Source of the DNA: Microtetraspora glauca
GTDB lineage: Bacteria > Actinomycetota > Actinomycetes > Streptomycetales > Streptomycetaceae
NCBI GenBank assembly: GCA_000721275.1
Contig: JOFO01000009.1
Location: forward strand, 123,318-187,317
Direction of reading: 5' to 3'
DNA length: 64,000 bases
This document shows positions 15,482-18,227 of this stretch, piece after piece. A program made the translations under genes and the position numbers. Each line of letters begins with the position of its first letter. The stretch's first letter is position 1. The notes under the pieces were generated by a model that was not told where the DNA came from, made no database searches, and saw nothing but the letters and a program-made list of their open reading frames with translations.

Positions 15482-15519
15482 AGGGCCCGTGCCGCGATTC
15501 CGGTCGCGGCACGGGCCCT
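15482..15519. terminator. Strong stand-alone hairpin
   Basis: A perfect 16-bp stem (AGGGCCCGTGCCGCGA at 15482-15497 with 15504-15519) encloses a 6-base loop. It has the form of the other intergenic terminators here, but neither neighbouring gene ends at it. It may terminate a short transcript from the 15460 box. Confidence 0.65.
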
Positions 15520-15897
15520 GGGTCGGCACCGGTGTCAGGGCAGCGGCGGTGCCGAGCGGAGCGGCGCCGGGGGGTCGCGCCGCGTCGGGGGAGGGAAGTC
15601 GGAGGGGACGGGTCGGAACGGTGGGGGAGGAGGATGAGCCGGTTGCGGTCGGCCCCGGGCGTCCCCGGGACCGACCGCCCTTTCTGGGTGACCGGGCTGC
15701 TGTCCCCTGCCGTCCGGTCACGCGCGCTGGAGCGAGGTCCCACGACGTACGAGAAGCACGTCACACGCTCCAGCGAAGCCACGCGTGGTTTCTTACGGGC
15801 CCGCCCCTGGCTGGCACGGACACCCCGCTCAACGAAGCCCGGCGGGGGCCGGTCACGCGCCGTACGGGTGAGTCCGGCACCGAACGCGGGTGCGGAA
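15520..15897. other. Non-coding interval with no supported gene
   Basis: Open frames cross this stretch on both strands, but none has a ribosome binding site, recognisable protein family or plausible composition. It contains a 10-bp inverted repeat (CGCTGGAGCG at 15725-15734 with 15766-15775) and the palindrome CCACGCGTGG at 15779-15788. No RNA gene was recognised. Confidence 0.55.
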
Positions 15898-15916
15898 CCC
15901 CACCCGCGGGGTGGGG
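15898..15916 (-). terminator. Hairpin downstream of chorismate mutase
   Basis: CCCCACCC and GGGTGGGG pair around the 3-base loop GCG. It lies about 70 bases past the stop codon of the leftward chorismate mutase gene and is its likely terminator. Confidence 0.5.
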
Positions 15917-15983
15917 CTCTCCGGGCGGCGGGGCTGGGCTCTCGGCTCGCGGGGTGCGGCTCTCCCGTCGGATCGGGGCGGGC

Positions 15984-16274
15984 TCAGACGCGGCCCCGGC
16001 ACAGCTCCAGCATCGTCATCGCCAGCGCCGTGCCCGGCTTGCCCAGCGCGTCCCGGTAGTGGGCGAGCACCTCCATCTCACGCGCCAGGTTCACCCGCCG
16101 GCCGCCCGAGGAGATCCGGGCCTCCTGGATCACCGCCGAGACCGCCATCCGCTCCTGGATGAGGCCGATGATCCGGTCGTCCAGCGCGTCGATCCGCTCG
16201 CGCGCGTCACCGATCAGCGAGGCCGCCTCGTCGGTGCGGGCGCCGGTCAGCTCGGTGGGGGTCTTCGTGGTCAT
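15984..16274 (-). CDS. Chorismate mutase (AroQ type II fold)
   Basis: A 96-residue all-helical chorismate mutase that rearranges chorismate to prephenate, the committed step to phenylalanine and tyrosine. The first helix (ARERIDALDDRIIGLIQERM, with Arg and Asp positions typical of AroQ) and the segment RRVNLAREMEVLAHYRDALG fit the monofunctional actinobacterial enzymes. There is no fused dehydratase, DAHP synthase or signal peptide, so it acts in the cytoplasm. The ATG (16272-16274) is preceded by CAGGAGCCCCGC, a clear ribosome binding site. The roughly 190-base leader encodes a Phe/Tyr-containing peptide and then a terminator hairpin, predicting attenuation by charged tRNA-Phe or tRNA-Tyr. 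The gene is divergent from guaA. Confidence 0.92.
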   Translation of the reverse strand: MTTKTPTELTGARTDEAASLIGDARERIDALDDRIIGLIQERMAVSAVIQEARISSGGRRVNLAREMEVLAHYRDALGKPGTALAMTMLELCRGRV

Positions 16275-16334
16275 GCGGGGCTCCTGGTGTTCCTCGTGGG
16301 GTGGAGGCCCCGGCCCGGCACGGCCCGGGAAACG

Positions 16335-16371
16335 CCAGACGCCCCGGGCCTTGTCGGCCCGGGGCGCCTGG
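16335..16371 (-). terminator. Attenuator terminator in the chorismate mutase leader
   Basis: On the leftward transcript CCAGGCGCCCCGGGCC pairs with GGCCCGGGGCGUCUGG (one G-U pair) around the loop GACAA, and CGUUU follows. This 16-bp hairpin lies between the leader peptide stop (16394) and the chorismate mutase start (16274), so it would stop transcription before the structural gene unless its first arm (16356-16371) is sequestered. Confidence 0.75.
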
Positions 16372-16393
16372 GGAAGTCGCTGTTGTCAGTTGC

Positions 16394-16465
16394 TCAAGCA
16401 GCACGACCATGGCAGCCGGTGGGCCGGTTGCCATAGGTAAACAGGAAGGTCGAGTGCGTGCGCAT
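16394..16465 (-). CDS. Leader peptide with Phe-Leu-Phe-Thr-Tyr run (attenuation control)
   Basis: A 23-codon reading frame begins ATG (16463-16465), ends TGA and starts MRTHSTFLFTYGNR. Codons 7, 9 and 11 are TTC, TTT and TAT: two Phe and one Tyr, the end products of the chorismate mutase branch. TTT and TAT are rare codons in this genome. A -10-like CATACT seven bases upstream suggests a leaderless message starting at the ATG. The next hairpin (16411-16432) overlaps codons just after the Tyr codon, so a ribosome stalled there would unfold it. This is the classic geometry of amino-acid attenuation. It is an inference from sequence; the peptide has no other recognisable function. Confidence 0.72.
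   Translation of the reverse strand: MRTHSTFLFTYGNRPTGCHGRAA
16407..16432 (-). promoter_or_regulatory. Alternative RNA hairpin / antiterminator segment
   Basis: GGCAACCGG and CCGGCUGCC (16411-16432) can form a hairpin over leader codons 12-18. The overlapping segment GGCCCACCGGCUGCCAUGG (16407-16425) is instead largely complementary, with small bulges, to the first arm of the terminator (16356-16371). The two structures are mutually exclusive, as needed for ribosome-controlled antitermination. Confidence 0.55.
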
Positions 16466-16472
16466 GGCGCCC

Positions 16473-16503
16473 AGTATGGACCCCGCCCGGCACCCCGGGG
16501 CAA
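16473..16503 (-). promoter_or_regulatory. Candidate promoter for the leader peptide and chorismate mutase
   Basis: Leftward TTGCCC (16498-16503) and CATACT (16473-16478) are separated by 19 bases. The predicted start falls at the leader peptide ATG. The spacing is one or two bases longer than ideal. Confidence 0.4.
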
Positions 16504-16511
16504 GCCGGGCC

Positions 16512-16556
16512 CGGATGGTGAGACGAAGGCCACCCGCGTTCGGATGGTGAGACGAA
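16512..16556. repeat. Two 16-bp direct repeats between the divergent chorismate mutase and guaA promoters
   Basis: CGGATGGTGAGACGAA occurs exactly at 16512-16527 and 16541-16556 (29-bp period). One copy adjoins the -35 side of the leftward leader promoter, and the other overlaps the -35 area of the guaA -10 box. They look like protein binding sites serving both promoters. Confidence 0.65.
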
Positions 16557-16576
16557 AAGCGACACGCGCACGCCGG

Positions 16577-16582
16577 TAGAAT
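16577..16582 (+). promoter_or_regulatory. guaA -10 box TAGAAT
   Basis: TAGAAT lies 53 bases before the guaA GTG. The -35 region is not consensus and is overlapped by the second direct repeat, suggesting activator or repressor control. Confidence 0.5.
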
Positions 16583-16634
16583 CGACAAATAGCCCCCTCC
16601 TTCGGGAACCCCCTACCGCCGGAAGGCCGCCGTA

Positions 16635-18227
16635 GTGTCATCAGCGTCCCCCGCTGCCGCGCCCGACGTCACCAACCCGGACGTAGTCCTCGTTGTCGAC
16701 TTCGGCGCCCAGTACGCCCAGCTCATCGCCCGCCGCGTCCGCGAGGCCCGGGTCTACAGCGAGATCGTCCCGTCCACCATGCCGGTGGCCGAGATGCTGG
16801 CCAAGAACCCGAAGGCGATCATCCTCTCCGGCGGTCCGTCGTCCGTGTACGCCGAGGGCGCCCCGCGCCTCGACCGCGCGCTCTTCGAGGCCGGCGTCCC
16901 CGTCTTCGGCATGTGCTACGGCTTCCAGCTCATGGCGACGACCCTCGGCGGCACCGTCGACAACACCGGCGCCCGCGAGTACGGCCGCACCCCGCTGCAC
17001 GTCACCAAGGCCGGCTCCACCCTCTTCGAGGGCACCCCGGTCGAGCAGTCCGTGTGGATGTCGCACGGCGACGCCTGCTCCGCCGCCCCCGAGGGCTTCA
17101 CCGTCACCGCGTCCACCGACGTGGTCCCGGTCGCCGCCTTCGAGAACGACGAGAAGAAGCTGTACGGCGTCCAGTACCACCCCGAGGTGCTGCACTCCAC
17201 GCACGGCCAGCAGATCCTGGAGCACTTCCTCTACCGCGGCGCCGGCATCCAGCCCACCTGGACCACCGGCAACGTCATCGAGGAGCAGGTCGCGGCCATC
17301 CGCGCCCAGGTCGGCGACAAGCGCGCCATCTGCGGCCTCTCCGGCGGCGTCGACTCCGCCGTGGCCGCCGCCCTCGTGCAGAAGGCCATCGGCGACCAGC
17401 TCACCTGCGTCTACGTCGACCACGGCCTGATGCGCAAGGGCGAGACCGAGCAGGTCGAGAAGGACTTCGTGGCCGCCACCGGCGCCCGCCTGGTCGTCGT
17501 CGACGCGCAGGAGCGCTTCCTCACCGCCCTCGCCGGCGTCTCCGACCCGGAGACCAAGCGCAAGATCATCGGCCGTGAGTTCATCCGCGTCTTCGAGCAG
17601 GCGCAGCTGGAGATCCTCCAGGAGGAGGGCCCCGAGGTCGCCTTCCTCGTGCAGGGCACCCTCTACCCGGACATCGTCGAGTCCGGCGGCGGCACCGGCA
17701 CCGCCAACATCAAGTCGCACCACAACGTGGGCGGCCTCCCCGACGACATCGAGTTCGAGCTGGTCGAGCCGCTGCGGCAGCTCTTCAAGGACGAGGTCCG
17801 GATGGTCGGCCAGGAGCTCGGCCTGCCCGAGGAGATCGTCCAGCGCCAGCCCTTCCCGGGCCCCGGCCTCGGCATCCGCATCGTCGGCGAGGTCACCAAG
17901 GAGCGCCTGGACCTGCTCCGCGAGGCCGACGCCATCGCCCGCGAGGAGCTGACCGCCGCCGGTCTCGACCGCGAGATCTGGCAGTGCCCGGTCGTGCTGC
18001 TCGCCGACGTCCGCTCCGTCGGCGTCCAGGGCGACGGCCGCACCTACGGCCACCCGATCGTCCTGCGCCCGGTCTCCTCCGAGGACGCCATGACGGCCGA
18101 CTGGTCCCGCCTGCCGTACGAGGTCCTCGCCAAGATCTCGACCCGCATCACCAACGAGGTCGCCGACGTCAACCGCGTCGTCCTCGACGTCACCAGCAAG
18201 CCCCCGGGCACCATCGAGTGGGAGTGA
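16635..18227 (+). CDS. guaA: GMP synthase (glutamine-hydrolysing)
   Basis: A 530-residue enzyme that aminates XMP to GMP with glutamine and ATP. The N-terminal class I amidotransferase has Cys94 in [11 protein letters not shown] and His182/Glu184 in QYHPEVLHS. The ATP pyrophosphatase domain carries the PP-loop [14 protein letters not shown], and the C-terminal dimerisation domain ends PPGTIEWE, the standard GuaA end. Length matches the family. The GTG start has GGAAGG about eight bases upstream. The gene is single, terminated by a strong hairpin, and divergent from chorismate mutase. With guaB3 at the left edge it marks this as a purine-synthesis neighbourhood. Confidence 0.97.

Follow-up and report, generated by a model that had tools for sequence, protein, structure and literature searches.

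The C. glutamicum gene aroF is preceded by the leader aroR, an actinobacterial leader with Phe-Tyr-Phe residues at which stalling raises transcription of the aromatic gene (PMC11802643, citing Neshat et al. 2014). The E. coli pheL-pheA attenuator is a Phe leader placed on an enzyme with a chorismate mutase domain (PMC11802643). From RNA-seq of S. lividans, eight leader peptides come (trpL1, trpL2, ilvL, leuL1, leuL2, alaL, thrL, and metL), which are short, several of them leaderless, and located before amino acid genes (PMC8079986). A discussion of codon bias in attenuator leaders can be found in PMC1183508. In a comparative study of RNA elements in Actinobacteria, Seliverstov et al. 2005 reported seeing no conserved regulatory RNA structure upstream of phenylalanine or tyrosine operons (PMC1262725).

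Within the 64,000 nucleotides of DNA analysed here (the window), an element on the minus strand upstream of a chorismate mutase gene is very probably a ribosome-mediated Phe/Tyr transcription attenuator, as judged from its sequence. This was the original prediction, and it is now supported by conserved Phe/Tyr codons and by the covariation of two hairpins, H1 and the terminator.

Organization of the leader and the chorismate mutase gene

The chorismate mutase gene (15984..16274, minus strand) encodes a 96-aa protein of the AroQ type, a relative of Rv0948c. It was recognized through profile matches to PF01817 (35.3 bits, cut-off 27) and NF005894 (119.6 bits, cut-off 73), and through the PDB, where the best solved relatives, 2qbv (Rv0948c, e-value 7.8e-12) and 5hub, are both intracellular enzymes. 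These matches indicate that the gene serves the synthesis of the amino acids that the leader would sense. A Shine-Dalgarno-like site of the gene, AGGAG, is located at 16281..16285 (minus strand). The leader region sits between the chorismate mutase gene and guaA (16635-18227, plus strand), which is divergent from the leader/chorismate mutase unit. The order on the minus strand is CATACT, ATG, a 23-codon ORF with H1 starting from the Tyr codon, the stop codon, 22 nt, a 16-bp GC-rich hairpin, and chorismate mutase. A GC-rich inverted repeat was also recognized by eye at 16330-16300 (minus strand), between the terminator and the Shine-Dalgarno-like site.

The leader peptide ORF, MRTHSTFLFTYGNRPTGCHGRAA (16394..16465, minus strand), begins with ATG at 16465 and ends with the stop codon at 16396-16394. 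The 23-codon frame with TTC, TTT, and TAT at codons 7, 9, and 11, as originally claimed, was found in the sequence, and the three control codons are located at 16447-16445, 16441-16439, and 16435-16433, respectively. In six neighbouring ORFs (2497 codons), TTT and TAT are used 0 times, TTC 62 times, and TAC 54 times, while the leader uses both TTT and TAT.

The -10-like hexamer CATACT (16473..16478, minus strand) ends 7 nt before the leader ATG, and a -35-like TTGCCC is found 19 nt before the hexamer; a sigma-70 consensus scan listed no promoter at the leader. Of 180 distinct Streptomyces leaders, 168 have a [TC]ANNNT hexamer (CATACT in 107) whose end lies 4-7 nt upstream of the start codon. 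In S. lividans, the -10 is on average 6.3 nt away from the start, and leaderless transcripts make up 17% (PMC8079986). From these values and the spacing of the hexamer, a leaderless transcript start at or near 16465 is expected.

Two other features lie upstream of the leader promoter. The sequence TTCGTCTCACCATCCG appears twice (16556-16541 and 16527-16512, minus strand, within 16512-16556), and CATCCG[AG] or a close form was found upstream in 84 of 179 distinct Streptomyces regions; the repeat may be an operator or promoter element. A small terminator-like hairpin at 16575-16560 (minus strand) is followed by CTTTTCGTCT.

The genome includes a second AroQ chorismate mutase (L001, G000 contig 3, 1492-1806, minus strand), which matches NF006691 with 160.7 bits. 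No short ORF with close Phe/Tyr residues was found upstream of this second gene, pheA (L291), or pheS (L293) of the same genome.

Distribution of the leader in Streptomyces and other families

A chorismate mutase match was found in 148 of 150 Streptomyces genomes. Loci were taken from 90 of those 148 (the 30 best and 60 lower-scoring), together with the best 80 of 464 confirmed named loci. The degenerate core TTY-A[CG]N-TAY-GG was searched for up to 550 nt upstream in 197 usable loci, 194 from Streptomyces and 3 not; they include 177 distinct sequences, and some loci represent one genome from two collections. The degenerate core was found in 192 of the 194 Streptomyces loci (192/197 of all), and the exact core TTT-ACC-TAT-GG (TTTACCTATGG) in 188 (188/197 of all). 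One core-bearing locus, L085, is absent from the second tblastn. The five loci without the core are the three from outside Streptomyces, L141, which reads Phe-Ile-Tyr-Gly (TTTATCTATGG), and L089, which keeps only ACCTATGG. These core variants indicate that the Phe and Tyr codons are retained, with Thr, Ser, or Ile as the possible residue in between. Among 168 Streptomyces leaders with an assigned start, 137 have 23 codons, and the Phe/Tyr codons counted up to the core are TTC 168, TTT 167, TAT 167, and TAC 12.

The covariance model R1, built from 38 leaders, matched 148 of the 150 Streptomyces genomes, and matched only once in the genome of the window, at 16332-16441. Two genomes have no R1 match: G102, which has no gene match either, and G008, with a partial gene match. 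In G113 the element is present with no chorismate mutase gene match. By eye, the R1 matches are mostly a few hundred bases from the place of the gene, and that of G002 is on another contig.

In the wider class, 209 of 394 genomes were matched by a profile built from five chorismate mutases. From this list of matches and another one, 60 places were taken for family spread, which is not a random sample, and three loci (L118-L120) were added. Short ORFs were analyzed in 52 regions of 450 nt upstream of an AroQ-like gene, 51 of them from outside Streptomyces and some being second copies in one genome; L207 was left out because of its short length. A short ORF with adjacent Phe/Tyr codons ([FY][FY]) was found in 38 of the 52 regions, against a mean of 2.82 and a maximum of 6 in 100 shuffles, and in 0 on the reverse strand. 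The 14 regions without such an ORF include L270, a Streptomyces FSYG leader. Among the divergent chorismate mutase-like matches L281-L290, one of ten (L287) has a [FY][FY] ORF, with a shuffle mean of 0.31. Two short ORFs with close Phe/Tyr residues were found in the region of the class II DAHP synthase (L292) in the genome of the window. One of them holds Phe-Phe and passes the [FY][FY] criterion without a Phe-Tyr pair; it was not taken for a leader, and it indicates that this ORF test alone can give a positive by chance.

The resulting set of 38 leaders consists of 37 from outside Streptomyces and L270; L269, which is among the 38 ORF-positive regions, and L287 were left out as doubtful. The -10-like hexamer lies 4-7 nt before the start codon in 36 of these 38, and TTT is included in the Phe/Tyr run of each of the 37. 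The peptide RFFYGYR is present in all 11 loci of one genus (g4 of family f4), and further examples outside Streptomyces are FYGGRARSPLCR, FFYALTGVRSGLGC, and RFFYYGTGSPAAVGRA. One chorismate mutase of g4 is close to Rv0948c, and by this likeness the genus looks like mycobacteria. Five other genera of f4 (g31, g73, g78, g120, and g135) have the leader in 0 of 10 loci (L209, L215, L217, L218, and L253-L258). Thus, the device is not universal, and its pattern suggests that the leader was lost within f4.

The Phe/Tyr codons are therefore kept in the Streptomyces relatives and recur in the chorismate mutase leaders of other families. A lack of conservation in codons and stems, named at the outset as grounds against the prediction, was not observed. 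The original prediction was silent on any reach beyond Streptomyces, and both the leader and H1 are found in these other families too. The short ORF with end-product codons of an attenuator is represented, as far as sequence can indicate, by this conserved Phe/Tyr-codon ORF.

Base pairing of H1, the terminator and the proposed antiterminator

The hairpin H1 (pairing 1:2; 16407..16436, minus strand) has the 5' arm CTATGGCAACCGG, which overlaps the Tyr codon, and the 3' arm CCGGCTGCCATGG. The first base of the 5' arm is the last base of the Thr codon, and the Tyr codon is included in the arm. A hairpin had been predicted at 16411-16432; it exists, but folds revealed it to be only part of the longer one at 16436-16407. 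For the leader of the window, the fold of H1 has a z of -2.4 against 100 shuffles.

The position of H1 was analyzed in 57 leaders, using a 63-nt segment around the Tyr codon and helices of at least 7 bp with a loop of up to 8. In 49 of these leaders, which include at least one from each of 11 families, the start of the longest hairpin helix falls between -2 and +5 nt relative to the last Tyr codon. Shuffles gave a mean of 4.7 and a maximum of 9, and shuffles only 3' of the Tyr codon gave a mean of 10.1 and a maximum of 17. H1 was missed by this test in 8 of the 57, and L120 shows no H1 (z +0.3). An earlier measure (L270 not included), which placed the start of H1 at -1 to +5 nt in 57 of 57, was withdrawn, as the folded segment itself began at -1; a similar measure (start up to +5, at least 7 pairs) gives a mean of 35 of 57 in shuffled sequences. 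When a wider segment was folded and the outermost enclosing pair was taken, it was in range for 1 of 57 and upstream in nearly all, because weak flanking pairs were counted. The family means of the H1 shuffle z range from -0.9 to -3.4, with some single leaders near 0 or above.

The stem sequences of H1 differ among families. In alignment A7, which contains 29 of the 32 distinct H1 sequences (L084, L087, and L090 were left out; the outer pairs of L090 are broken), both sides are changed in 8 of 12 pairs, with 50 cells, and 91.7% of cells pair, against 34-49% in slid versions; 0 of 500 shuffles were as high for either value. The hairpin 1:2 is thus placed, by its position in 49 of 57 leaders and its covariation, where a stalled ribosome would block it. 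A hairpin at the Tyr codon with a changing stem sequence is the geometry of attenuation and is otherwise hard to explain.

Within H1, the third base of the Tyr codon forms a T-A pair in 21 cases, C-G in 17, and T-G in 3 (L120 left out). This pairing of the wobble base would explain why TAT is kept in Streptomyces and TAC in others. TTT is likewise kept among the control codons, at 16441-16439 and in leaders of other genera, though it is outside H1 and unused in the six neighbouring ORFs. Unlike the case of TAT/TAC and H1 pairing, no reason was found for the retention of TTT.

The terminator hairpin (pairing 3:4; 16335..16371, minus strand) has 16 bp and the loop GACAA, and is followed by CGTTTCCC. 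Its arms are CCAGGCGCCCCGGGCC (16371-16356) and GGCCCGGGGCGTCTGG (16350-16335). The predicted 16-bp terminator before the chorismate mutase start is accordingly present in the sequence. The consensus scan for sigma-70 promoters and terminators did not list it, since its tail has three T's and the scan asks for five. Counting the T's in the 8 nt that follow the stem in 177 Streptomyces leaders gave three or four for 122 leaders and five or six for 26. Double changes occur in 6 of 16 pairs among 38 Streptomyces leaders, and 0-2 of 500 shuffles were as high; L148 was left out of alignments A5 and A6 because the hairpin finder had picked a wrong hairpin. The intrinsic terminator before the gene is thus a covarying 16-bp hairpin with a weak T tail.

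In a search of 15500-17500 against Rfam, with the T-box included, no family reached its gathering score. The best was the sbcD RNA (RF01757), with 28.5 bits over 16330-16437 (minus strand) and the aligned identities mostly in the terminator; membership was rejected, as the gathering score is 40.

Strand 2, the 3' arm of H1 (16407..16419, minus strand), can pair in constrained folds with the 5' arm of the terminator, forming the proposed antiterminator 2:3. When the 5' arm of H1 is blocked and arm 4 is absent, 16419-16407 pairs with 16371-16359 in the minimum-energy fold. When arm 4 is present in the full-length leader of the window and the 5' arm of H1 is again blocked, the minimum-energy fold is the terminator, and so 2:3 would have to win by forming first. 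The alternative pairing claimed in the original prediction is thus reproduced by the fold without arm 4. Another possible pairing between H1 and the terminator (16406-16372), GUCG/CGAC with CUG/CAG added in some species, was recognized by eye and in folds.

Among the 38 Streptomyces leaders, 94.3% of the cells of 2:3 pair, with 2 of 500 shuffles as high and 20-53% in slid versions. Double changes are found in 2 of 11 pairs, a value equalled or exceeded by 48 of 500 shuffles, and in 0 of 9 pairs in a second version of 2:3. The shuffle z for 2:3 has family means from -1.2 to +1.3, with -0.67 for Streptomyces. When arms were swapped between families, the native combination was preferred in 30 of 57 leaders, and in 35 of 57 with the 3' arm of H1 alone, which is no clear preference. 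In this swap test, the arms of H1 and the terminator were chosen as pairing in their own sequence, which favours native pairing; the shuffle z, covariation, and helix-position tests are thus cleaner. With the 5' arm of H1 blocked, arm 3 showed increased pairing in only 22 of the 57. The antiterminator tests are low in power because the arms are so GC-rich. Of the compensatory changes that were looked for in the stems, those in H1 and the terminator are present, but the antiterminator has almost none and gives no cross-family signal. The antiterminator is the unproven step of the mechanism: it is pairable in Streptomyces, with little covariation and no signal across families.

These results also bear on an alternative in which a ribosome stalled at the Phe/Tyr codons acts without 2:3, with access of Rho, the stability of the RNA, or a different alternative pairing as possible routes. 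It would account for the covariation of H1 and the terminator in the face of 2:3 not covarying across families, and for the weak T tail of the terminator in Streptomyces leaders. The excess of 2:3 pairing in Streptomyces over the slid controls speaks against it, and it is considered improbable.

Proposed mechanism and comparison with known systems

The attenuator with the antiterminator 2:3 would work as follows. Transcription would begin at the leader ATG, as the -10 hexamer suggests, and a translating ribosome would follow RNA polymerase closely through the Phe/Tyr codons. Under a shortage of charged Phe- or Tyr-tRNA, this ribosome would stall at TTT or TAT and cover the 5' arm of H1, since this arm begins at the Tyr codon. 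With H1 blocked, its 3' arm would pair with the first arm of the terminator before the second is made, and chorismate mutase would be transcribed. If both tRNAs are charged, the ribosome would continue to the stop codon, which lies 22 nt upstream of the terminator; the latter would then form and transcription would end. The product of chorismate mutase is prephenate, from which both Phe and Tyr are made. The regulatory loop would thus close on its own products, and the control codons fit the gene because the enzyme serves both amino acids. What the sequences show is the parts and their conservation, the covariation of H1 and the terminator, and an H1 that repeatedly starts at the Tyr codon.

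A different signal for the stall would be a nascent FTYG...CHGRAA chain that arrests the ribosome on a small molecule (e.g., chorismate or prephenate) instead of uncharged tRNA. In favour of this, Streptomyces leaders have a nearly invariant Phe-x-Tyr-Gly, and many of them have the tail GCHGRAA in common. Against this, the tail is in another frame in some species while the DNA is still similar, so it looks like a constraint on RNA, and Thr is swapped for Ser or Ile in some leaders. The peptides also vary by family (RFFYGYR, FYQGPG, FFYALTG, and FYPDR), having in common the Phe-Tyr codons and the hairpin, and this difference makes arrest by the peptide less likely; it is regarded as very improbable. 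The least probable alternative is an unregulated leader, in which the terminator would do no more than reduce expression of chorismate mutase, and the small ORF would be translated without any role in sensing: it fits an antiterminator without covariation support, but leaves unexplained both the conserved Phe/Tyr codons and a Tyr-codon hairpin with compensatory changes in different families.

For the Phe/Tyr attenuator itself, a broader picture is put forward with moderate confidence. The device on the AroQ-type chorismate mutase gene would be ancestral to the class Actinomycetes, being found in Streptomyces, the mycobacterial-looking genus, and nine further families, and some lineages would have lost it. 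It would set the split of chorismate between Phe/Tyr and Trp, and the wobble base of its Tyr codon, located in the switch hairpin, would coevolve with its partner (TAT-A, TAC-G). The leader would be an example of a control codon whose wobble base is tied to the switch structure, and would give the Phe/Tyr branch product-sensing control in antibiotic-producing organisms.

The E. coli pheL-pheA leader is not leaderless. It also differs from the leader described here in that pheA encodes a bifunctional chorismate mutase-prephenate dehydratase, sensed by Phe-tRNA (PMC11802643). The leader aroR controls DAHP synthase, not chorismate mutase, and responds to Phe, not Tyr (PMC11802643). None of the eight Streptomyces leaders listed in PMC8079986 is a Phe/Tyr leader or precedes chorismate mutase. 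Among the matches listed, no report of a Phe/Tyr leader at chorismate mutase in Actinobacteria was found; the set of 150 premature transcription units of S. clavuligerus (PMC8269248) could include it. The mechanism is thus a known one, on a gene for which no report was found in Actinobacteria, and its reach is wider than originally predicted. A conserved element at the branch point, on the gene of the enzyme that directs chorismate towards Phe and Tyr, contrasts with the negative result reported by Seliverstov et al. (PMC1262725).
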